Positions 440 through 24,050 of a stretch of 64,000 nt of DNA are shown in pieces. Numbering within the stretch: position 1 is the first letter of the stretch; the number at the start of each line of letters is the position of its first letter. A program made the position numbers and the translations under genes. Below the pieces are notes generated by a model. That model made no database searches. It had not been told where the DNA came from and was given only the letters and a program-made list of their open reading frames with translations. Source of the DNA: Desulfobacula toluolica Tol2 (GTDB taxonomy: Bacteria; Desulfobacterota; Desulfobacteria; Desulfobacterales; Desulfobacteraceae); the NCBI RefSeq assembly GCF_000307105.1, contig NC_018645.1, positions 3,433,501-3,497,500 of the forward strand, given 5' to 3'.

Positions 440-2320
440 TTAAAAATCTTCAAACGACTCATTTTCATCAAAGGGTATAATTTGATTCGATTTGATTTCT
501 TGTTTACTGGTAGCCGTTATTTTGTTTTGATTTAAGCCAATAGAATGAGATTTATAAGAAAAGAAGGGGGCTTTTTTTTTGTTTATCAAAACATTTGTCC
601 TGTCTTCTTTGCCGCTCACCAAAAGAACAAGATCAGCCACATAATCCCTTAGTTGTTCTGCCTGGGAACTCATCTCTTCTGATGCGGAAGCGGATTCTTC
701 AGCATTGGTGGCATTTTGTTGAACCACTTTGTCCATTTCGTAAATAGCGTTATTGACCTGATCAATTCCATCAGACTGGTCTCTGGATGCTTCTGAAATT
801 TCAACAACCAGATCACCAACCTTACTGCTGCTTTCAGCCACATCCCTAAAAGAATCGCTGGTTTTTAAAACTATTGCTGATCCATCGCTGATTTTTTTTA
901 CAGTATCTTTAATCAACTCTGCCGTATCTTTTGCAGCATTAGCAGCCCGCATGGCAAGATTTCTGACCTCATCTGCAACGACGGCGAATCCTGCTCCGGC
1001 TTCGCCTGCACGAGCAGCCTCAACGGCAGCATTCAATGCCAGAAGATTTGTCTGAAATGCAATTTCATCAATTGTTTTGATGATCTTGGAAGTTTCTTCA
1101 CTTGCTTTTGAAATATCATTCATGGAAAGAGTAAGTTGTTTCATTGATTCATTTGCCTCAGTAACGACATGATTTGCCTGTTTCATGAGACGGTCGGCAT
1201 TGCTTGAATTTTCAGCATTTTTCTTTGTCATTGAAGACATCTCTTCTATTGATGCAGAAGTTTCTTCAATAGAGGATGCCTGCTGGGAAGAGCCCTCTGC
1301 AAGAGACTGGCTGGCAGAGGATACCTGAATCGAAGCTGATGCAACCTGGTTAGCCCCTTCTTCCATTCCGTTGATAATCCTGTTGATTGGATTCACAATT
1401 GACTGTGTAATTAAGAATATTATTGCTGCAATAATAATAACGCAAACAACACCGATAATAATGCTTGTGTTACGCATCTGATAAACCGGAGCAAAAATTT
1501 CAGCCTTGTCTGCTGTTGACGCAACTATCCAACCCAAATTCGGTTCTTCTGCAAATGCAACTGTTTTATTAACACCTTCAAAGCTATAGTTTATCAGCCC
1601 TTTTTTTTGTTTCAGCATTTGGCGGCCGAAATCATATTGACTGATATCCAGTGTTAATATCTTTGATTTATCCGGATGGGCCAGTATAATTCCCTCATTA
1701 CTGCTGATATATGCATATCCTGTTTCTCCGACTTTTTCGGAATCAACAAATTCTTTTGTAAAATGATTCAAATTAATGGCTCCAAAAAGCACGCCTACTA
1801 TGGTATTTTTTTGCTTAACCGGATAAGAGATGCAAAAGACAGGATTTCCTGAAACTTTGCTTTTGATTATGTCTGAAACAGATACCTTTCCTGAAAAAGC
1901 TTCTTTAAAATAACTCCGATTTGAGATATTCATTGATCCGATCATACCGGTTTCAGATGACGCTATAATCTTGCCCCCTGGACCAGCCAGGGCGATAAGT
2001 TCAAAAAATGTACTGTTCCTTTTGATTTTTTCCAAACGACGATTTGCTGTGCTTTGTATGCTCTCATCTTGTAATGATTGGTTCGCAGCATCTGTAAATA
2101 TGGTTTCTTCACTGAAATTATTTAAATCATTTCTCCGTTCCATGATCCAATTGCCAAGTTGCTTTGAAATTGAACCGGATACATATTCCACCTGGCCTGC
2201 AATTGAATTTTCCAGGGCTTTGCTGGATTTCATGTATGAAACAACTGACATCAAAATCAAACAAAGTATGGTTGTTGTCACAGTTGGAATAAGAAATTTA
2301 TATTTTAAGCTGAGTTTCAT
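440..2320 (-). CDS. Methyl-accepting chemotaxis protein with dCache sensor and C-terminal CheR tether
   Basis: This 626-residue transmembrane chemoreceptor has TM1 at about residues 9-30 and a periplasmic double-Cache domain at about 33-283 (NRSYF and FGAINL segments). TM2 lies at about 285-307, followed by a cytoplasmic signalling helical hairpin whose conserved tip ([21 protein letters not shown]) is near residues 415-440. A full HAMP domain is absent: TM2 is followed by about one helix before the methylation helices. The last five residues are SFEDF, fitting the x-aromatic-x-x-aromatic pentapeptide that tethers CheR/CheB in other receptors. The canonical amino-acid-binding dCache residues are not evident, so the ligand is unknown. 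Its promoter region (2478-2575) carries a -24/-12 element and an operator shared with the cheW operon, so the two are probably co-regulated. Confidence 0.93.
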
Positions 2321-2477: not shown

Positions 2478-2493
2478 ATCAATTTCCCTGCCA
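2478..2493 (-). promoter_or_regulatory. Predicted sigma-54 (-24/-12) promoter for the dCache chemoreceptor
   Basis: On the minus strand the element reads TGGCAGGGAAATTGAT, which fits the sigma-54 consensus TGGCACG-N4-TTGCW except at one -24 position and for A instead of C in the -12 GC. It shares 14 of 17 positions with the element at 6838-6854 when the preceding T is included. Transcription would begin near 2467, leaving a leader of about 145 nt before the chemoreceptor start at 2320. The match alone is moderate; the identical upstream operator at identical spacing makes it convincing. Confidence 0.6.
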
Positions 2494-2557
2494 AGGCAAT
2501 AAATATAAAATCATTTTATATTGCAAGTGGTTACAAAATTTATCCAACCAGGCAGAA

Positions 2558-2575
2558 TGTCACAAAAATATGACA
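2558..2575 (-). promoter_or_regulatory. Inverted-repeat operator / enhancer site upstream of the dCache chemoreceptor
   Basis: The site is TGTCA-N8-TGACA. Read toward the chemoreceptor it is TGTCATATTTTTGTGACA, identical over 18 bases to the site at 6757-6774. Its centre is 75 bp upstream of the GG of the predicted -24 element, the typical position of an activator site for a sigma-54 promoter. It ends five bases before the stop codon of the sigma-54-dependent response regulator gene. That neighbour is the obvious candidate activator, though this is inferred. Confidence 0.65.
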
Positions 2576-2579
2576 CACA

Positions 2580-3980
2580 TTAAACTCCTTTTATATTATA
2601 CTGTTGCAAGAGACGGTAAATATGACCTCTTGAAAGCCCGGATATCCGGCAGGTTTCCTTAATATTTCCTTGTGTGACCAATATCAGATTCTGAATATAT
2701 GCATGTTTTGTGTTTTCAATATGATCTTTTAGCTTTGGGATGCTGCCGATTTTTTTTTTGTTTGGAAAAAAAGGTGGCGTGTGTGTGTTGGCTTTGTTTT
2801 GAGCTTTGATTTTATTTCTGATGTTAACTGCCCGAATATTTTCAGGCAGGTGATGAGGAAAAAGTGTTGTGCCGTCACCTGCCTCGCTGAAGACCAGATC
2901 TATTGTATTGAGAAGTTCCCGGACATTTCCAGGCCATTCGTACAATTTAAGTTCTTCTAAAAATTCCCGGGACATAGTACAATTTTTTCCGGAAAGATCT
3001 TTTTTGCTATTGAGATGATGTTGGGCAAGAATGATGATATCTTCTTTGCGGTCTTTTAATGGAGGCAGGTGAATATTCATGGAAAATAATCTAAAAAAAA
3101 GGTCTTCTCGGAATTTGTTTTGTTTCACCATGTCTGCTATATCACGATGTGTTGCGCAAATCAGCCTGAAGTCACTTTTAACTTCTTTTTTGCTGCCAAT
3201 GGGTCTGAATATCTTTTCCTGAAGTACTCTGAGAAATTTTTTTTGAACATCTAAAGGGAGTTCACCCACTTCATCCAGGAACAGGGTTCCCTTATCAGCC
3301 ATTTCCATTAAGCCTGTTTTATCAGAATCAGCCCCTGTAAATGCACCTTTTGCATGGCCAAACAATGTGTTTTCAACAAGATGTTCAGGCAACGAGGCAC
3401 AGTCAACAACCACAAATTCTTCATGGAATCGTTTACTGTTGTCATGGATGGCCCTTGAAAAAAGCTCTTTACCGGTTCCTGTCTCTCCTGTGATAAGGAC
3501 AGGAAGATCATTATGGGCTGCCGTTGAAATTTTATCCAGACAGTTTGAGATTAATCTGCTTTTGCCAATAATAGCTGCACAGTTAATCTGTTTTTCCGGG
3601 CTTTTTGCCTGTTTTTGCCTGCGATATTCTAATGCTCTTTCTAAAGCAAATTTAAAATCTCTATGGGATTCTCTTTTTGAAATATAATCCCAGGCGTTAG
3701 ACCGCATTGCCAACTCTGCACCGTCAATATCTTCATCCGCCGTAATAATAATGATTTCCGGAGCCAATGGTCGCTGTTTTATGATTTCTATAGCGTCCAG
3801 GCCATTGCCGTCCGGCAAATTTACATCCAGAAAAACAATATCAATATATTCAGAAATTATTTTATCCAGTCCCTCTTTCAAAGTCAGTTGATAAGATGCG
3901 GAATAACCCATTCTATTAAAAACTTTGGATAAAAGTTTACATATCTGTTCGTCATCATCTATGATTAATACGTTAGGCAT
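2580..3980 (-). CDS. Sigma-54-dependent response regulator (NtrC family)
   Basis: The 466-residue protein has three domains in order. The receiver domain (about 1-120) has acidic residues DDD at 8-10 and the phospho-acceptor Asp52 in FLDVNLP. The AAA+ sigma-54 activation domain (about 135-370) has Walker A GETGTGKE near 167 and the GAFTGA loop that contacts sigma-54 near 212. A Fis-type helix-turn-helix occupies the last 30 residues (ETCRISGLSRGHIYRLL). All signatures of an active enhancer-binding protein are present. It lies 68 bp downstream of a hybrid kinase on the same strand, its likely partner. The inverted repeats at 2558-2575 and 6757-6774 flank this kinase-regulator pair and are its most likely binding sites. 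The linker before the HTH is long and rich in K/N, with no assigned role. Confidence 0.95.
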   Translation of the reverse strand: MPNVLIIDDDEQICKLLSKVFNRMGYSASYQLTLKEGLDKIISEYIDIVFLDVNLPDGNGLDAIEIIKQRPLAPEIIIITADEDIDGAELAMRSNAWDYISKRESHRDFKFALERALEYRRQKQAKSPEKQINCAAIIGKSRLISNCLDKISTAAHNDLPVLITGETGTGKELFSRAIHDNSKRFHEEFVVVDCASLPEHLVENTLFGHAKGAFTGADSDKTGLMEMADKGTLFLDEVGELPLDVQKKFLRVLQEKIFRPIGSKKEVKSDFRLICATHRDIADMVKQNKFREDLFFRLFSMNIHLPPLKDRKEDIIILAQHHLNSKKDLSGKNCTMSREFLEELKLYEWPGNVRELLNTIDLVFSEAGDGTTLFPHHLPENIRAVNIRNKIKAQNKANTHTPPFFPNKKKIGSIPKLKDHIENTKHAYIQNLILVTQGNIKETCRISGLSRGHIYRLLQQYNIKGV

Positions 3981-4048
3981 AATTTTTTTTATCTATTAAA
4001 AACAAATTAATCTCAAGAGTTTTTTTAATCTCCCGATGTTGTAAAAAG

Positions 4049-6487
4049 TTAGTATTCTTTGCTTTCATCTAAAACAGACCTTATCGTTTCTGTAAATTTC
4101 GATTTGATTATGGGCTTAAACAACAATCCTTTCACTCCGATTGACCTGGCTTTTTCCGGACTTATCCGTTCGCTGAACCCGGTACAGATGATGACAGGAA
4201 AACCGGGAATGATATTCATGATTTTATGTGCAAGCAGATCCCCTGTCATGTCCGGCATTGTCATATCCGTAATAACCAAATCAAACCGGTCAGGATTTGC
4301 TCTTATAAGTTCCACTGCCTTCAGGCTGCTGTCTTGTGTTTCCACCTTATATCCTAGACGTTCAAGCATTGTTTTTTCAAGCCTTAAAACCTGATGTTCA
4401 TCATCCACCAGAAGGATTCGTTCATTTCCCCGGGCATGAATAATCTTTTCTGCTTGAGGGTCAGATATGAATCTTTGTTTGATAGCAGGGATATACACAT
4501 CAAAGGTGCTGCCCTCACCCGGGCTGCTTGTTACCTTGATTTCCCCTTTGCAGTTTTTTACAATCCCCTGGACAACAGACAGTCCTATTCCGGTTCCCTT
4601 TCCCTTGGGTTTTGTAGTAAAATAAGGATCAAATATTTTTTCTAAAGTCATTTTGTCCATACCTGCTCCGGTATCACTGACAGAAAGCCAGATAAAAGGT
4701 TCAATGCAGGGTTTGCCACAAGGAATGAATGTTTCATGGAAGAGATCCGTTTTTTCTGAATTTTTAAGCTTTATGGTCAATGTTCCTCTTGAATCTTGTA
4801 TTGCATGGTAGGCATTGGTAATTAAATTCATGGCCACCTGATGGATCTGTATCGGGTCAGCCAGAATCATCAGGCAATCAGGATCAATCTCTTTTTTGAT
4901 TTTTATTGATGTCGGAATGGTCGAGCGGATCAGTTTTATCACTTCCTTGATAATTAAATCCGGTTTTAAAGGCATTAACTTTTGATCTGTCTGGCGGCTG
5001 AATGTCAGTATCTGTTTCACAAGATCTTTTGCCCGCCTTGCACCGATCAAGATTTCATTTACACTTTCCTTATACTGACTGTCCTGTGGAAAGTCTTCAA
5101 CCAGCATTTCCGCATACCCGATAATTGGAAAAAGGATGTTGTTGAAGTCATGGGCAATGCCGCCGGCCAGCGCACCAATTGCCTCAACCTTCTGAAGTTG
5201 TTGAAGTTGTTTTTCCAGTTTTTTTCTTTCATGTTCCGCTTTTTTCTGATGGATTAAAATCATTACATTTGTAATCAATGCTTCAATTTGTTTTACGTCT
5301 TCTTTGGTATACTCATCGGGTTTGTTTGCCACGACTGTAATAAGCTCAATACCATCTTTCCCAACGGTTGGGACTGAAAGAAATCGTTTTATCCTCACAT
5401 GGCCTTCGGGCAATCCTGATTTTTCTTCATGTTTTGCCGCATAATCATTTATGATGACAGGTGCTTTTTTTTTGATTGATTTTGACCAGAAACCAGCAGT
5501 TTTGACGGGAAATTTAATTGGTTTATCAGTTACATTGCACTCAATCATTACTTCCGGAGACATCGAATATAGAGTCATTTCACTTTCATCATGATTTAAA
5601 AATCCTATATAAGCATATGGACTATGGGTAATTTTTTCAATTTCCGCCAAGGCATAATCACATATTGTTTTTAGAGTTTCATTACCCATGCTGGCGATTT
5701 TCCAAAGCGCTTCCAGCCTTATTCTTAATTCTTGTTCATTTTTTTGTTTTTTGATAAGTTCGACTTCTGCCAGTTTGCGTTTGGTAATATCTTCTGTTAT
5801 TGACAATAATTGGGGCGTACCCTCAAAAGTGATAATGACACCGCTATACAGGCCATAAAATATACTCCCGTCTTTTTTATGAAAAACAACCTCTAAGGCA
5901 TTAACCTCTCCTTGCTTTATCAATAGCTGCTTTAGATGGTTTCGATCATCAACTGATATAAATCCCAAATCAGATGAGGTGGTTCCGATGGTTTCTTCCC
6001 TGGTGTATCCCGTGATCCTGATAAAATTTTCATTTACATCTATGAATTTGCCCTCATCTATCGTGGTGATTCCCATACAAATTGGACTTTTATAAAATAT
6101 TTTAAAAAATTTTGGGGATGCATTGGACAGATTCTTTTTATGTTCCAGTTCTGTGGAATCTGTTGTTTTAACCGTTTTTTGTAATTTTTCAGAAACCAGG
6201 GCTCCGGCGCAAATGCCAAAAGTTATACCTCCATAGGCAGCAGCAAGTCCGACCAGAATGACTCGGCCATCCTTCATAATTATCGGCAGTATTTCAATAT
6301 AGGTCATCACGCCGATCCCGGCGATTACTGAAAATGAGGCCCCCATGGCCATATTTTGAATGGTTGGTATTGTGGATTTGAGATGAGACCACAAAAATCC
6401 GAATAAAAAAGAAAAAGAAAAAAACAATGAAATTTTTGGAGAAAGACTTTTAAATAAGGCGCTTATAACATCCATGATGTTGTCCAT
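4049..6487 (-). CDS. Membrane hybrid histidine kinase (LytS-like TM-PAS-GAF-HisKA-HATPase-REC)
   Basis: The 812-residue protein starts with about three hydrophobic segments within residues 15-105. They include a KDGRVILVGLAAAYGG stretch resembling part of the LytS-type 5TM sensor, apparently shortened. A PAS domain (about 130-235), a GAF domain (about 260-405), a HisKA domain with phospho-acceptor His in GGIAHDFNNILFP (near 446), a HATPase with GTGIGLSVV, and a receiver with phospho-acceptor Asp in VITDMTMPDMTG (near 737) follow. It sits 68 bp upstream of the sigma-54 regulator and is probably co-transcribed with it, which makes it the likely signal input for that regulator. Its transmitter-receiver half is closely similar to those of three plus-strand kinases in this window. 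Confidence 0.9.
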   Translation of the reverse strand: MDNIMDVISALFKSLSPKISLFFSFSFLFGFLWSHLKSTIPTIQNMAMGASFSVIAGIGVMTYIEILPIIMKDGRVILVGLAAAYGGITFGICAGALVSEKLQKTVKTTDSTELEHKKNLSNASPKFFKIFYKSPICMGITTIDEGKFIDVNENFIRITGYTREETIGTTSSDLGFISVDDRNHLKQLLIKQGEVNALEVVFHKKDGSIFYGLYSGVIITFEGTPQLLSITEDITKRKLAEVELIKKQKNEQELRIRLEALWKIASMGNETLKTICDYALAEIEKITHSPYAYIGFLNHDESEMTLYSMSPEVMIECNVTDKPIKFPVKTAGFWSKSIKKKAPVIINDYAAKHEEKSGLPEGHVRIKRFLSVPTVGKDGIELITVVANKPDEYTKEDVKQIEALITNVMILIHQKKAEHERKKLEKQLQQLQKVEAIGALAGGIAHDFNNILFPIIGYAEMLVEDFPQDSQYKESVNEILIGARRAKDLVKQILTFSRQTDQKLMPLKPDLIIKEVIKLIRSTIPTSIKIKKEIDPDCLMILADPIQIHQVAMNLITNAYHAIQDSRGTLTIKLKNSEKTDLFHETFIPCGKPCIEPFIWLSVSDTGAGMDKMTLEKIFDPYFTTKPKGKGTGIGLSVVQGIVKNCKGEIKVTSSPGEGSTFDVYIPAIKQRFISDPQAEKIIHARGNERILLVDDEHQVLRLEKTMLERLGYKVETQDSSLKAVELIRANPDRFDLVITDMTMPDMTGDLLAHKIMNIIPGFPVIICTGFSERISPEKARSIGVKGLLFKPIIKSKFTETIRSVLDESKEY

Positions 6488-6650
6488 TCTAAAATAATAT
6501 ATTCAACAAATTAGAATTGTTTTGTGATTAAAACCATAACTTGTTTGAATTCTAATTAGAGTATTTTCTCTTATCACTAATTCTACTTATTAGAAATAAA
6601 AATTATAAAAATATGGATTTGATAGGCAAAACTTCAAAACAAGGAGAGGA

Positions 6651-6684
6651 GTCTCATTTTTGTGACAGTCTCATTTTTACGACA
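6651..6684 (+). repeat. Two tandem 17-bp direct repeats, degenerate operator copies
   Basis: The two adjacent units are GTCTCATTTTTGTGACA (6651-6667) and GTCTCATTTTTACGACA (6668-6684), differing at two positions. The first unit with its preceding base matches the 18-bp operator TGTCATATTTTTGTGACA at 15 positions and has the same orientation. They look like secondary, weaker binding sites for the same activator, about 90-110 bp farther upstream of the cheW promoter. They could equally act on the divergent kinase gene. Confidence 0.45.
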
Positions 6685-6751
6685 AACCCTACAATTCAAT
6701 ATATAATCAATAAATTTAATATATTAACATTGCATATGACAATTCATGATG

Positions 6752-6779
6752 CAAATTGTCATATTTTTGTGACAATTTG
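6752..6779 (+). promoter_or_regulatory. Perfect inverted-repeat operator / enhancer site upstream of cheW
   Basis: The arms CAAATTGTCA (6752-6761) and TGACAATTTG (6770-6779) are perfect inverted repeats around an 8-bp A/T spacer. The core at 6757-6774 is identical, in the same orientation relative to its promoter, to the site at 2558-2575. An additional inverted half site, ATGACAATT, lies at 6736-6744. The core centre is exactly 75 bp upstream of the -24 GG of the predicted cheW promoter. Confidence 0.7.
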
Positions 6780-6838
6780 TCGGGTTTGTTAAATTTTGTA
6801 ATCAATTGAAATAAATCAGATTTTCTATCTGATTACTT

Positions 6839-6854
6839 TGGCATGAAAATTGAA
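6839..6854 (+). promoter_or_regulatory. Predicted sigma-54 (-24/-12) promoter of the cheW operon
   Basis: TGGCATGAAAATTGAA matches the sigma-54 consensus TGGCACG-N4-TTGCW with one -24 change and A for C in the -12 dinucleotide, the same -12 deviation as the promoter at 2478-2493. Transcription would start near 6866. The upstream inverted repeat at 75 bp supports activation by an enhancer-binding protein. Confidence 0.6.
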
Positions 6855-7003: not shown

Positions 7004-7528
7004 GTGGAATCACCGGGCAGTTTAAATCAAGACAATTTAAATCAAACAATTCAGACAAAAATCATGAAAACAGGCAAATATCTGACCTTTAACCTTGTGG
7101 AGGAAGAATACGGCATCGGTATTCTTAAAGTCAAAGAAATCATAGGGATGATGCCGATCACTTCAGTCCCCCGAACGCCTGATTTTGTCAAGGGTGTTAT
7201 TAATTTAAGGGGAAAAGTGATTCCCGTTATTGATCTTAGATTAAAATTCGGCATGAACTCCATACCGTATTCAGACCGGACATGTATTATTGTTGTCGAG
7301 GTTGATTCAAATGACATGACTGTTCAAATCGGTATAGTTGTGGATTCCGTTTCTGAAGTATTAAATATTAGTGAAGCAGAGATAGAAGAAACCCCGGCCT
7401 TTGGAACCAGACTTGATACCACTTATATAATGGGAATGGCAAAGACACAAGGTGGTGTAAAAATTCTTCTGGATATTGATCATGTATTGTCAAATGAAGA
7501 ATTAATGGGGCTTAAAAAAACTGTCTGA
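7004..7528 (+). CDS. cheW: CheW coupling protein
   Basis: This 174-residue protein consists of one CheW domain, which links chemoreceptors to the kinase CheA in the cytoplasm. Diagnostic segments are the LTFNLVEEEYGIGILKVKEII start, SVPRTPDFVKGVINLRGKVIPVIDLR in the middle, and the MGMAKTQGGVKILLDIDHVL end. The start is a GTG at 7004 preceded by AGGAG. There is an N-terminal extension of about 20 residues before the domain. It is the first gene after the predicted sigma-54 promoter and is followed 45 bp later by a chemoreceptor, so the two probably form a receptor-coupler pair. No cheA or cheY lies in the window. Confidence 0.95.
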   Translation: MESPGSLNQDNLNQTIQTKIMKTGKYLTFNLVEEEYGIGILKVKEIIGMMPITSVPRTPDFVKGVINLRGKVIPVIDLRLKFGMNSIPYSDRTCIIVVEVDSNDMTVQIGIVVDSVSEVLNISEAEIEETPAFGTRLDTTYIMGMAKTQGGVKILLDIDHVLSNEELMGLKKTV

Positions 7529-7573: not shown

Positions 7574-9880
7574 ATGAAGAAATTTGGCATTGGGATAAAG
7601 ATTGCTTTGGGATTTGGTCTGATAATCGCAATTTCATGCATACTTGGAATGATGGCCATTTGGAATATGCATAATGTACAGAATCAAAGCACTATACTGG
7701 CCCATGAGTATGTCCCTGAAGTTGATGTCGCGGTAAAAATAAGAGAAGCTGCCAATCAAGTAATGTTCGCAATGAGAGGGTATGGATTTACAGAGGATGA
7801 AAAATTTTATAAAAATGCCCAAAAAGCGACGATATCCTTAGAAAATGCTTTAGCAAAAGGCCGCGACCTTGAGGCACAGTCTCCTAATTTAAAAAAGCTA
7901 AAAAGTCAGCTTGAAGCTGCCACTCAAGCGTTTGATGAATATAAAAAACTCATTTCTCAAACAGTTGATTTTAATTCTGAGTTGGCAAAAAACAGAGAAA
8001 CTCTTAATTCATCTGCTGAAAAATACATGAAAAACTGTGCGCAATTTCTGGACGGACAGAATACGGCATTCAAAAAGAACCTGACTGAACGTCAAAATAA
8101 AATCACAATTGTCACGGATGTTGTCGAGCAAGGAGCCCTTGCCAGGATTAATAATTTCAAGGCCCAGGTATCAAAAGATATGCAACTCATGAAAAAAGCT
8201 GCAAATCATATTCTTGAAACAAACAAAAAATTAGAGACCATAAGACCAATCACCCGTAAACCTGAGAATATCAAACAGATAAATGCCATTCAAACTCATG
8301 CAAAAAACTATGCTGAAGCCATGGAAGGATATATCAAAACAAATGAGACAAGATATCGCAGAGAAATGGATGCGGCTGCAGGTCAATATACCGAAAATTG
8401 TGAAGCATTCCTGAAAAGCCAGCACAACGCACTTACAAGGGAAATGCTGGAACGCCAAACCAAAATCAATTTAGCAAATGATATCATTGACCTTGGCAAT
8501 ATTACGCGGGTAGGAGTTTTTAAATCCCAGGCATTGCGCAGTCCCAGTATAATGGAAGATGCATTAAAAAATTTTCAAAAAATTGATGAAAAATTTAACA
8601 GTCTTCAACAGATCACCCGAAATGAAGCTGATCTTAACCGGATTAAAGAGGTAAGTACCGCAGGGAACAATTATCAAACTGCAATGAAGGATTTTCTTAA
8701 CAACTGGCTTGAATTACAACAATTGGCAAACAAAAGAAATGTTGTTGGCTTATCGGTTATTGATGCCTGCAAGACAACTACTGATGCAGGACTGCAGGCA
8801 ACGGACAAAGTTGCAAAAGACACGGTCTCTTCTCTTGATAATGCGTCGACAATGATGATTGTTGGCTTTATTGCGGCTCTTATGGTCGGTATAGTATCTG
8901 CTTTTTTTATCATCCGAGGCATTACACGCCCTGTTAACAATATCACCAAAGGCATGAATGAGGGATCAAACCAGGTTGCTTCTGCCGCAATTCAGGTGTC
9001 TTCTGCCAGCCAATCCCTTGCAGAAGGCGCTTCTCAACAGGCCGCAGCCATAGAAGAAACCTCTTCATCCATGGAAGAGATGGCTTCCATGACAAAGAAA
9101 AATGCTGAAAATGCATCCCAGGCCGATAATCTCATGAAAGAGGCCGGTAAATTTGTAAAAAGCTCCAATGACTCCATGGAGAAACTGATACACTCCATGG
9201 AAGATATCTCAACTGCCAGTGAAGAAACGTCCAAAATCATCAAAACCATCGATGAAATCGCTTTTCAGACAAACCTGCTGGCCCTGAATGCAGCGGTTGA
9301 AGCTGCCAGAGCCGGAGAAGCAGGGGCCGGGTTTGCCGTTGTGGCCGATGAAGTCAGAAATCTTGCCATGAGAGCTGCAGATGCAGCCAAAAACACGGCT
9401 GAACTCATTGAAGGAACGGTAAAAAAAGTAAATGACGGCTCCGAACTTGTGTCCACGACAAATAAAGCCTTCAGCCAGGTAGCTAAGGCTGCAGCCAAAG
9501 TGGGGGATCTGGTCACGGAAATATCAGAAGCATCCAAGGAACAGTCCAATGGGATTGAACAGGTGAACAATGCCATTGCGGAAATGGATAAAGTCGTTCA
9601 GCAGAATGCCTCAACTGCCGAGGAATCCGCATCAGCAGCTGAAGAGATGAGCGCCCAGGCAGAACAACTCAGGGATTATGTTGGTGACCTTGTTATGCTG
9701 GTAACCGGTGATAAAGACCAGACTATTGCGTTGCCGGACAAAAAACGGGTAAAAGCCATTTCTTATACATCGAATGCAATCAATGCAAAAAAAAGCAAAC
9801 GCATTGGTCATAATCCAAAAGAAATAAGGCCTGAACAGGTGATAACATTTGATGAAGAGAATGCGTTTGAAAATTTTTAA
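7574..9880 (+). CDS. Methyl-accepting chemotaxis protein with all-helical (HBM-like) sensor
   Basis: The 768-residue receptor has TM1 at about 8-30 and TM2 at about 426-448. Between them lies an all-helical periplasmic region of about 390 residues resembling the helical bimodular (HBM) fold but longer. That region contains a visible tandem duplication. One unit of about 120 residues starts near 150 ([17 protein letters not shown]) and the next near 271 ([17 protein letters not shown]), with shared ERQTKIN/ERQNKIT and ITRxxxxxxxI segments. A full HAMP domain is missing after TM2. The signalling tip ([21 protein letters not shown]) is near 558-580 and is nearly identical to that of the dCache receptor. 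The C-terminus is AFENF, a CheR-tether-like pentapeptide. AAGGA precedes the ATG. HBM relatives sense organic acids; the ligand here is unknown. Confidence 0.93.
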
Positions 9881-20957: not shown

Positions 20958-23900
20958 ATGAAACTCAACAGACGAGACTTTATCAAAATTTCAGGAGCCA
21001 CTGCTGCCGGAGTTGCCGTCAGCGGTCTGGGATTTGATCTGTCACAGGTCAAATCCCATGCCGGCCTGCTGAAAACCCAGTATGCCAAGGAAAGCACAAC
21101 CATCTGCTGCTATTGTGCAGTGGGATGCGGTGCCATTGTCCACACCAGCAAACGGGGGGACGGCAGGGTTATCAATATTGAAGGTGACCCTGACCATGTC
21201 ATCAACCGGGGGGCTTTGTGTTCCAAAGGCTCATCTTTGAAACAACTCACGGAAAATGAAAACCGCCTGACCGAGCCTATGTACCGGGCACCCTACTCAA
21301 ACAAATGGCAGACCGTTTCCTGGGACTGGGCCCTGAACACCATTGCCAACAGGGTCAAACAAACCAGGGATATGACTTTTGAAAAAACCAATGCAAAAGG
21401 TCAGACCGTCAACAGGACAACCCGTATCGCTTCTTTAGGATCGGCAGCCATGGATAATGAGGAATGCTGGATCTATCAGGCCTTGATGCGATCATTGGGC
21501 CTTGTCTATATCGAACACCAGGCCAGGATCTGACATAGCGCAACTGTAGCGGCTCTGGCAGAGTCGTTCGGACGCGGTGCAATGACAAACCACTGGATTG
21601 ATATCAAAAACAGTGACTGTATTCTCATCATGGGCAGCAATGCTGCTGAAAACCACCCTGTCGCTTTTAAATATGTCACCCAGGCCATGGAAAACGGAGC
21701 AAAACTGATCAATGTTGACCCGAGATTCACACGGACATCTTCAAAGGCGGATATCTATACCGCCTTAAGATCCGGAACAGATATTGCCTTTCTGGGCGGC
21801 ATGATCAAATACATTTTAGACAACGACCTTTACAACAAAGAATATACGGCAGCCTACACCAATGCCCCCTTTATTGTGGGAAAATCCTACGGATTTAAAG
21901 ACGGGCTGTTTTCAGGGTATACAAAGAATGAACAAGGCCCTGCCCTGGGAAGTTACGACAAATCCAAATGGGCTTTTGAAATGGACAACAACAAGGTTCC
22001 TAAAATGGACCGAACTCTGAGTCACAAGCGATGTGTGTTCCAGCTTTTGAAAACCCACTACAGCCGGTATGACATTGATACGGTCTCCAAAGTTACCGGA
22101 ACCTCAAAAGAAGATCTTTTAACTGTCTACAAAACCTATGCACAAACAGGAAAAACCGGGACAGCCGGAACCATCATGTATGCCATGGGATGGACCCAGC
22201 ATACTGTCGGGACCCAGAACATCCGTACCATGGCCATAATCCAGCTGCTGCTGGGCAACATGGGTGTTGCAGGCGGAGGTGTAAACGCCTTAAGGGGAGA
22301 ATCCAATGTTCAGGGATCTACGGATCACTGCCTGCTGTGGCATATCTGGCCGGGGTATCTTAAAACCCCGCAGGCTTCCAATGACAGCCTTGAGGCCTAC
22401 AATGACAAATGGACGCCCAAAAGCAATGATCCCTTGTCCGCAAACTGGTGGAGCAATTATCCCAAGTATTCGGTGAGCCTTCTCAAATCATTCTTTGGAG
22501 AAGCCGCCACAAAATCCAACCAGTTTGGTTACAACTGGCTGCCCAAAGTTGATGACGGTGCTGTATACTCCTGGTTTGATCTGTTTGATGCCATGTATAA
22601 AGAAGAGATCAAAGGTTTTTTTGCCTGGGGCCAGAACCCTGCATGTTCAGGCTCAAATGCCTCAAAAATCAGGAAAGCCATGGAAAATCTGGACTGGATG
22701 GTCAATGTCAATCTGTTTGATAACGAGACAGGTTCTTTCTGGAACGGCCCGGGTACAACTCCTTCTAAAATCAAAACAGAAGTATTCATGCTTCCGGCAG
22801 CGGTTTCCGTTGAAAAAGAAGGAAGCATCACCAATTCCGGCCGCTGGATGCAATGGCGGTATCAAGGCCCCAAGCCTCTTGGTGACAGCCGTCCTGACGG
22901 AGATATCATTGTTGAACTGGGTCATCGCATCAAAAATGCATACAAAAAATCAGGCGGTGTATTTGAAGAACCCATCGTGAATTTAAAATGGGATTATGAC
23001 ACCAACGGCGTTTATGATCCCCATAAAGCAGCCAAACAAATCAACGGGTATTTTATAAAAGACACGACCATTAAAGGCAAAAAATTCAAAAAAGGCACCC
23101 TGGTCCCCAGCTTTGCCTTTCTACAGGCAGACGGATCAACATCTTCAGGCAACTGGCTGTATTGCAACTCATATACGGAAAAAGGAAACATGTCCGCCAG
23201 GAAAAGCCAAAAAGATGCACCCAACAATATCGGACTTTATCCCGAATTTGCATGGTGCTGGCCGGTGAACAGGAGAATCATCTACAACAGGGCCTCGGTT
23301 GATCCCAAGGGACGTCCCTGGGACGAAAAAAACTGGGTCATTAAATTTGCCGGCGATGAAAAAGGCGGCAAATATGTTTCCCAAAAATGGATTGGAGATG
23401 TGCCTGACGGCGGCTGGTATCCCCTTGAAAACCCGGACGGCTCCAAACGCTCTGATTCCAAACTGCCTTTTATCATGCAAAAACATGGTCATGGACAGAT
23501 CTTTGGCCCGGGAAGGGCTGACGGTCCTTTTCCCGAACATTACGAACCCCTTGAATGCCCGGTGGAAAAAAATTATTTCAGTTCCAGAATGGTCAGCCCC
23601 ACGGCAGCGGTTTACAGCACAAAGGCGGATACTCATGCCACCTGTGACCCAAGATTTCCGTTCGTTGGCACCACCTACCGGGTTTCAGAACATTGGCAGA
23701 CAGGGCTCATGACCCGGCCCCAGGAGTGGCTCATGGAACTGCAGCCAAATATGTTTGTGGAAATGAGTGAAGAACTGGCCAAGCTTCGGGGAATTAAAAA
23801 CGGGGAGAGGGTAAAGGTCTCAAGTGCCAGGGCAAGCGTTGAGTGTACAGCCATGGTGACCAAGAGATTCAGACCCTTTAAAATCGGATATTCGACCGTA

Positions 23901-24050
23901 CACCAGGTGGGAATTCCCTGGCATTATGGCTGGCGATGGCCGTCCACAGGGACGGAAGAAAGCGCTAACCTTCTGACGCCTCCGGCCGGGGATCCAAACA
24001 CCAGGATTCCGGAAACCAAGGCCTTTATGGTCAATGTGACAAAACTTTAA
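20958..24050 (+). CDS. fdhA: Selenocysteine-containing formate dehydrogenase catalytic (alpha) subunit, Tat-exported
   Basis: This is a single gene of 1030 residues read through an in-frame UGA at 21531-21533 as selenocysteine 192. Sequence on both sides is in one frame and matches the family active site (EHQARI-Sec-HSATVAALAESFGRGAMTNHW). The protein oxidises formate to CO2 at a bis-molybdopterin (Mo or W) site. It begins with a twin-arginine signal (NRRDFIKIS at 4-12), so the folded enzyme is sent to the periplasm. A [4Fe-4S] site is visible at about 49-90 (CCYCAVGC then ALCSKG). The C-terminal molybdopterin-dinucleotide domain ends near ETKAFMVNV. AAGGAGG precedes the ATG. The iron-sulfur subunit follows 16 bp later. 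Ordinary gene calling would wrongly split it into two frames. Confidence 0.96.
21531..21566 (+). promoter_or_regulatory. UGA selenocysteine codon with predicted bacterial SECIS hairpin
   Basis: The UGA at 21531-21533 is followed 17 nt later by a short stem, GGCTCT (21551-21556) with AGAGTC (21560-21565), closed by a GGC loop. The placement just downstream of UGA inside the coding sequence and the G-containing small loop fit the bacterial SECIS element that recruits SelB. The fold was drawn by eye and the lower stem is less clear. Confidence 0.65.

Follow-up and report, generated by a model that had tools for sequence, protein, structure and literature searches.

The window analysed here is a stretch of 64,000 nucleotides from Desulfobacula toluolica Tol2 (contig NC_018645.1, positions 3,433,501 to 3,497,500). 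Near its start, the genes for a hybrid histidine kinase and an NtrC-type enhancer-binding response regulator lie side by side, flanked by two sets of chemosensory genes: a dCache chemoreceptor on one side, and CheW followed by a second chemoreceptor on the other (Table 1). Each set is preceded by the same 18-bp candidate operator, TGTCATATTTTTGTGACA, and by a sigma-54-like -24/-12 element. An earlier note, made from the letters of the window, took this arrangement for a local regulon in which the kinase switches on both chemosensory promoters through its own regulator. Here we examine that proposal in the window, in the complete genome and in related genomes.

The proteins have the domains expected of such a circuit. 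In a Pfam scan, the 466-residue regulator matches Response_reg, Sigma54_activat and AAA_lid_14 above cut-off, and HTH_28 below it (22.9 versus 25 bits); the GAFTGA motif was read in the sequence. The kinase has membrane segments at its N-terminus, as judged by eye. The second chemoreceptor matches 4HB_MCP_1 slightly below cut-off, which suggests a 4HB-type sensor. It begins 45 bp after cheW, and the two genes are probably co-transcribed. The genome contains one rpoN gene (Sigma54_DBD, E 2e-59).

Table 1. Genes and candidate regulatory elements of the locus (positions are those of the window)
Feature	Position	Strand	Sequence or length	Remarks
dCache chemoreceptor (target gene 1)	440..2320	-	626 aa	Pfam dCache_1 and MCPsignal
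Sigma-54-like -24/-12 element	2479..2494	-	TTGGCAGGGAAATTGA	Receptor promoter
IHF-like site	2521..2533	-	TAACCACTTGCAA	40 bp upstream of TGG
Candidate operator	2558-2575	-	TGTCATATTTTTGTGACA	Exact; a few bp past the regulator stop codon
NtrC-type enhancer-binding response regulator	2580..3980	-	466 aa	REC, AAA+ with GAFTGA, C-terminal helix-turn-helix (HTH), helix motif SRGHIY
Hybrid histidine kinase	4049..6487	-	812 aa	PAS, GAF, HisKA, HATPase, REC
Degenerate candidate operator op1	6650..6667	+	AGTCTCATTTTTGTGACA	Upstream of cheW
Degenerate candidate operator op2	6667..6684	+	AGTCTCATTTTTACGACA	17 bp after op1
Candidate operator op3, promoter-proximal	6757-6774	+	TGTCATATTTTTGTGACA	Exact match
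IHF-like site	6799..6811	+	TAATCAATTGAAA	40 bp upstream of TGG
Sigma-54-like -24/-12 element	6838..6853	+	TTGGCATGAAAATTGA	cheW promoter
CheW (target gene 2)	7004..7528	+	174 aa	Domain scan
Second chemoreceptor	7574..9880	+	768 aa	MCPsignal above cut-off; 4HB_MCP_1 slightly below

The description of the two promoters in the earlier note is accurate on three points. The operator is present as an exact 18-mer in both; the -24/-12 elements are nearly identical, each reading TTGGCA-N6-TTGA; and the distance from operator centre to TTGGCA centre is 75 bp in both (82 bp from operator start to TGG). Both elements have GG with N10 spacing, and their -12 part ends in GA, not GC. Two further features had been overlooked: the tandem op1/op2 pair (6650-6684), and an IHF-like site in each promoter. 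The IHF consensus is given as WATCARXXXXTTR, and IHF typically sits between enhancer and promoter (passages in PMC7962754). By eye, the site in the cheW promoter departs from this consensus at one position, and that in the receptor promoter at two.

The resemblance of the two promoters goes further. Their local alignment scores 56; the highest score among 500 mononucleotide shuffles is 28.5. With the operator left out, it scores 38, against a maximum of 20 in 500 shuffles, and the similarity reaches down to the -12. No perfect block in the alignment is longer than the operator. Since the likeness extends beyond the 18-mer, the two are probably copies of one promoter. The cheW promoter has the three-operator layout of its relatives—a tandem pair plus a proximal site—and the receptor promoter has one operator, at the place just past the regulator stop codon where many relatives have op1. 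The receptor promoter looks like a shortened copy, a direction of copying that we infer.

The 18-mer is not scattered at random over the genome, a possibility the earlier note had raised. Within the single contig of 5,197,905 bp, TGTCATATTTTTGTGACA occurs at 25 places when up to three mismatches are allowed: two exact (the window sites), one with one mismatch, two with two and 20 with three. The reversed 18-mer gives 14. Six genomes of equal length, simulated with an order-3 Markov model of the window, contain no sites at one mismatch or fewer, 0.83 on average at two or fewer, and 23.5 at three or fewer. The exact and one-mismatch sites, three in all, are thus far above chance, and those with three mismatches are at background level. 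One of the two-mismatch sites lies beside another regulator (L063); it is inside the coding sequence of that regulator and was discarded. The looser pattern TGTCA-N8-TGACA, which the earlier note had recommended in combination with nearby -24/-12 elements and which we ran on its own, does find three sites at receptor promoters; it does not discriminate, with eight sites in the genome against five for the reversed control. Of the remaining five, four are within open frames (L064, L072, L073 and L071), one of these the frame of a receptor gene, and one is intergenic (L066). A fixed composite, TGTAA-N37-TGGC, was also tried as a promoter signature and rejected: it does not single out the regulon because it has 54 matches in the genome against 40 for its reversed control. 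Its element is reinterpreted here as IHF-like, at a spacing of 38-42 bp.

Related loci were compared in a set of 86 genomes of the family, with regulators called at E<=1e-130. The regulator is present in 29 of these genomes (43 rows); the close named relatives are Desulfobacula and Desulfotignum metagenome-assembled genomes, in 8 of 11 loci. We examined 45 regulator loci, six from D. toluolica itself, after setting aside L106-L111, which are copies of contigs present under other handles. In 30 of the 45, genes for CheW, methyl-accepting chemotaxis protein (MCP), CheA, or a ‘small’ conserved protein described below occur within 6 kb downstream of the regulator. These 30 include four modules of D. 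toluolica, so the earlier opinion that such pairings of chemoreceptors with a sigma-54 two-component system are uncommon does not hold for this family. Promoter geometry was assessed in 30 regions. Eighteen of them have the op1-op2 pair with its 17-bp period, and 16 have a proximal operator, 80-86 bp upstream of TGG. An IHF-like TAA...TGAA element lies 38-42 bp upstream of TGG in 26, by a pattern picked after viewing the sequences. The distance from op2 to op3 is 78-93 bp in the 12 regions that have all three operators (90-93 bp in 10 of them), and the -24/-12 elements are similarly positioned. At three loci (L163, L175 and L154), the operators are found at the promoter of the small gene, 1-7 kb from the regulator; what the operator accompanies is therefore the receptor operon, rather than just the place where the regulator gene ends.

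A blind search of the same 86 genomes for TGTCATATTTTTNTGACW returns 22 sites in 14 genomes, and none for the reversed control. Twenty of the 22 are upstream of a small gene, of a small-CheW pair or, in D. toluolica, of a receptor or CheW gene. This count comes from 13 loci that were read plus the three sites of D. toluolica; in G036 only the small gene is within reach. G064 and G067 each have a GH-type regulator on the contig that carries the operators, at a distance of 16-22 kb. Exact operators occur in 11 of the 29 genomes that have the regulator and in 3 of the 57 that do not (Fisher p 0.0002), a value that is indicative only, since the genomes are related and many are incomplete. We also searched 291 genomes of the class, 88 of which have a match to the subfamily at E<=1e-125, and followed up 20 loci. 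A small, CheW or MCP gene lies downstream in 10 of these, within the stretch retrieved (L180, L181, L183-L187, L189, L193 and L198). Two (L182 and L199) have no regulator label at the threshold used, and at the other 18 the TGTCATATTTTT operator is absent from the 500 bp examined.

D. toluolica contains several paralogous modules. The closest subfamily relative of the window regulator, at locus L056 (genome 329259-330647), is 57% identical and has the same SRGH helix motif; four more are 43-46% identical. The only one-mismatch copy of TGTCATATTTTTGTGACA in the genome lies behind the L056 regulator, ahead of a chemoreceptor operon: two tandem operators, of which this is the second, are followed by a -24/-12 element, a small gene and a chemoreceptor gene. 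The L059 and L060 modules have the order kinase-regulator-small-(CheW)-receptor without an operator of the TGTCATATTTTTGTGACA type. The four modules account for 5 of the 31 receptor-domain matches in the genome. As a separate observation, the receptors of such modules (the two of the window, and those of L056, L059, L060, L104, L105, L108 and L111) share a C-terminal tail that contains an acidic stretch and ends in phenylalanine (e.g. FENF, FEDF, FVDF and FKNF), perhaps a tether for an adaptation enzyme.

Operator sequence appears to vary with the recognition helix of the regulator. For this comparison, sites without an AT-rich centre were dropped, which removes the SQ-like site of L170, and L158, an AH row, was excluded. 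An A follows GTC in 25 of 31 sites of regulators with a GH helix, against 1 of 14 sites of those with an SQ helix. In the latter, C follows TC in 12 of 14, and precedes GAC in 10 of 14. On a regulator tree built without the C-terminal 70 residues, the GH label requires five changes and the SQ label four, of which supported branches force at least two each. Counted per locus, helix and operator are associated (Fisher p 0.009, 23 related loci). This covariation, phylogenetically weak, is suggestive of direct binding by the regulator, though it is not proof. Behind the genes of regulators with an SQSR helix (L057, L060, L176, L188 and L194), TCCT-N-AGGA palindromes are present at 5 of the 6 loci, compared with 5 of 54 others. 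They may mark a third operator specificity; terminators could be among them, and the six loci include close kin. At L170 (about 6189-6223, minus strand, genome G069), an SQ-like and a GH-like operator stand in tandem in a promoter adjoining an SQ-type regulator; the genome additionally has a GH-type regulator.

We consider it very probable that the locus is a local sigma-54 regulon, leading from the hybrid kinase through the NtrC-type activator to the CheW and chemoreceptor promoters. The kinase would sense a signal and phosphorylate the adjacent regulator. The phosphorylated regulator would assemble on operators of the TGTCA-N8-TGACA type upstream of two sigma-54 promoters, one serving the dCache chemoreceptor and the other cheW and the second chemoreceptor. 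Bending at the IHF-like site, which lies between operator and -24/-12, would deliver the regulator to RNA polymerase-sigma54, which would open the promoter only upon this contact, and receptor and CheW would then be made. What is observed are the sites, their spacing and recurrence across genomes, the domain content and the single rpoN gene; phosphotransfer, direct binding, activation and IHF binding are inferred from the NtrC/sigma-54 paradigm. As a local two-promoter regulon, the proposal of the earlier note is still the best-supported one, given that operators stand at small-CheW-MCP promoters even where the regulator is distant. It needs qualifying in that the identity of the promoters appears to be due in part to duplication, and that the 57% paralogue may share the sites.

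Several observations weigh against this interpretation. The usual -12 element of sigma-54 promoters is TTGC, and both promoters have TTGA instead. By itself, the -24/-12 pattern occurs in the window at chance frequency (3 found, 1.9 expected), and the match draws its weight from position and conservation. Among the 30 promoter regions, the proximal operator is unrecognized in 14 and the tandem pair in 12. A regular-expression search of the 130 bp past the regulator stop codon finds no operator in 9 of 23 GH loci and 6 of 14 SQ loci; some of the nine GH loci carry one elsewhere (L163, L175 and L154), and in others, L166 among them, none was found. The helix-operator rule is contradicted by 5 of 23 loci, and supported branches provide only two independent pairs, so that the sign test is not significant. 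Two of the 22 exact operators (in G002 and G085) are away from receptor operons, and G065 has operators but no regulator match at the threshold used.

Some of these observations bear on other explanations. It is possible, though we think it improbable, that the regulon is shared: the L056 regulator would bind the operators of the window, either alongside the regulator encoded there or in its place, with several kinases feeding one operator set. This is compatible with the local circuit, and does not exclude it. Only a single base separates the best operator of one locus from that of the other; both regulators carry SRGH-Y, which also speaks against a purely local arrangement; and the tandem at L170 joins two operator types in one promoter. 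Arguing the other way, the position preceding TGAC is usually C in the L056 clade and G or A among the relatives of the window, with exceptions such as L160, and at both loci a kinase, a regulator and operators of their own have stayed together. We assign a very small probability to the idea that the operators mainly autoregulate the kinase-regulator operon, which starts near 6487 and is divergent from cheW, with control of the receptors secondary. The tandem pair is indeed some 160-200 bp upstream of the kinase start. In many relatives, however, the pair is behind the regulator gene, upstream of the receptor operon and away from the kinase promoter, and operators remain at receptor operons distant from the regulator.

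Equally improbable is that an unrelated factor, for example a repressor at a sigma-70 promoter, acts on the 18-mer and that the -24/-12 match is accidental. The chance frequency of the -24/-12 pattern on its own would allow this, but it would leave unexplained how little the distances to TGG and to the IHF-like site vary across most of the 30 promoter regions, and why the operator is associated with one regulator subfamily. Least credible of all is that the shared 18-mer is a functionless by-product of recent promoter duplication. Similarity does run beyond the operator, as such an origin requires; yet the longest perfect block is the operator itself, and the idea is contradicted by its recurrence at the corresponding position in further genera of the family.

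In the related operons, the gene at the head is the small one, encoding a conserved protein of about 130 residues (e.g. L056:8913-9308 and L105:10459-10836). The window has no such gene between promoter and cheW. The members scanned have no Pfam match above cut-off. A model of one member (predicted local distance difference test, pLDDT, 92; alignment of five rows) has the alternating beta-alpha order of a receiver, and its top matches in the Protein Data Bank are mostly receivers and receiver-like domains of the CpaE/TadZ type, with E no better than 1.1e-3 and a TM score of 0.67. Receivers carry acidic residues after strand 1; the five aligned members have H-Q there, and a D or E close to where strand 3 ends. 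The protein is likely a pseudo-receiver, with a receiver-like fold that lacks the usual acidic pair. More speculatively, and with considerable doubt, the kinase-regulator clade may represent plug-in transcriptional gates, each controlling an entire chemosensory operon, in the Desulfobacterales. Several insulated gates per cell would be made possible by duplication together with co-divergence of helix and operator (GH with TGTCA, SQ with TTCCC/GCGAC, perhaps SQSR with TCCTG/CAGGA), and the conserved pseudo-receiver at the operon head would return the state of the array to the kinase or regulator.

Two other features were seen in passing. The window encodes the catalytic subunit of a formate dehydrogenase (20958-24050, plus strand), in which codon 192 is an in-frame TGA interpreted as selenocysteine; an iron-sulfur subunit and an FdhE-like gene come next. 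Elsewhere in the genome (3178632-3267565), five equally scoring receptor genes occur one every 19-24 kb, and an identical 46-mer is present in four copies, suggesting a large repeated segment.

The elements of the proposed circuit are familiar. Systems of the NtrC family with sigma-54 and IHF likewise combine a REC-AAA+-HTH regulator containing GAFTGA, upstream palindromic sites, and an IHF-like site before the -24/-12 (passages on IHF in PMC7962754). Here the targets are chemoreceptor and CheW operons, and the family has its own layout, a 17-bp tandem pair with a proximal operator. Myxococcus xanthus also links a histidine kinase and an NtrC-type regulator to a chemosensory system; there the regulator, CrdA, controls development and is itself regulated by CrdS and the Che3 system (as outlined in PMC3510030). 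In D. toluolica, by contrast, the predicted role of the regulator is to activate the chemosensory genes themselves. Sigma-54 promoters have been predicted at che clusters in Geobacter (PMC2577667) and at chemotaxis operons in Desulfovibrio vulgaris (PMC4641369), with no dedicated regulator assigned in the passages concerned; the chemotaxis-linked promoters of D. vulgaris are listed there among those without predicted upstream sites. Rhodobacter sphaeroides, too, has a chemosensory operon under sigma-54, and its citation in PMC2577667 mentions no dedicated kinase-regulator pair. Among the titles and opening lines of abstracts listed by searches of an open-licence library, we found no report of a dedicated kinase-regulator gate for chemosensory operons with the three-operator layout, and the word chemotaxis is absent from the main text of a Desulfobacteraceae network paper (PMC11887813).

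NtrC/sigma-54 control is classical; the proposed dedicated gate on chemosensory operons, with its three operators, appears to be the new part. Control of chemoreceptor genes is usually regarded as belonging to the flagellar hierarchy. The receptor sets described here appear to have a sensor kinase and a sigma-54 activator of their own, and the cell would choose which sensing apparatus to build by a second signal. With several paralogous sets in one genome, and operators that differ between them, the species lends itself to asking how parallel regulators are kept separate; the locus also supplies defined promoters for testing in sulfate reducers. The arrangement recurs in related sulfate-reducing bacteria, and looks like a reusable on/off switch for the sensing apparatus.
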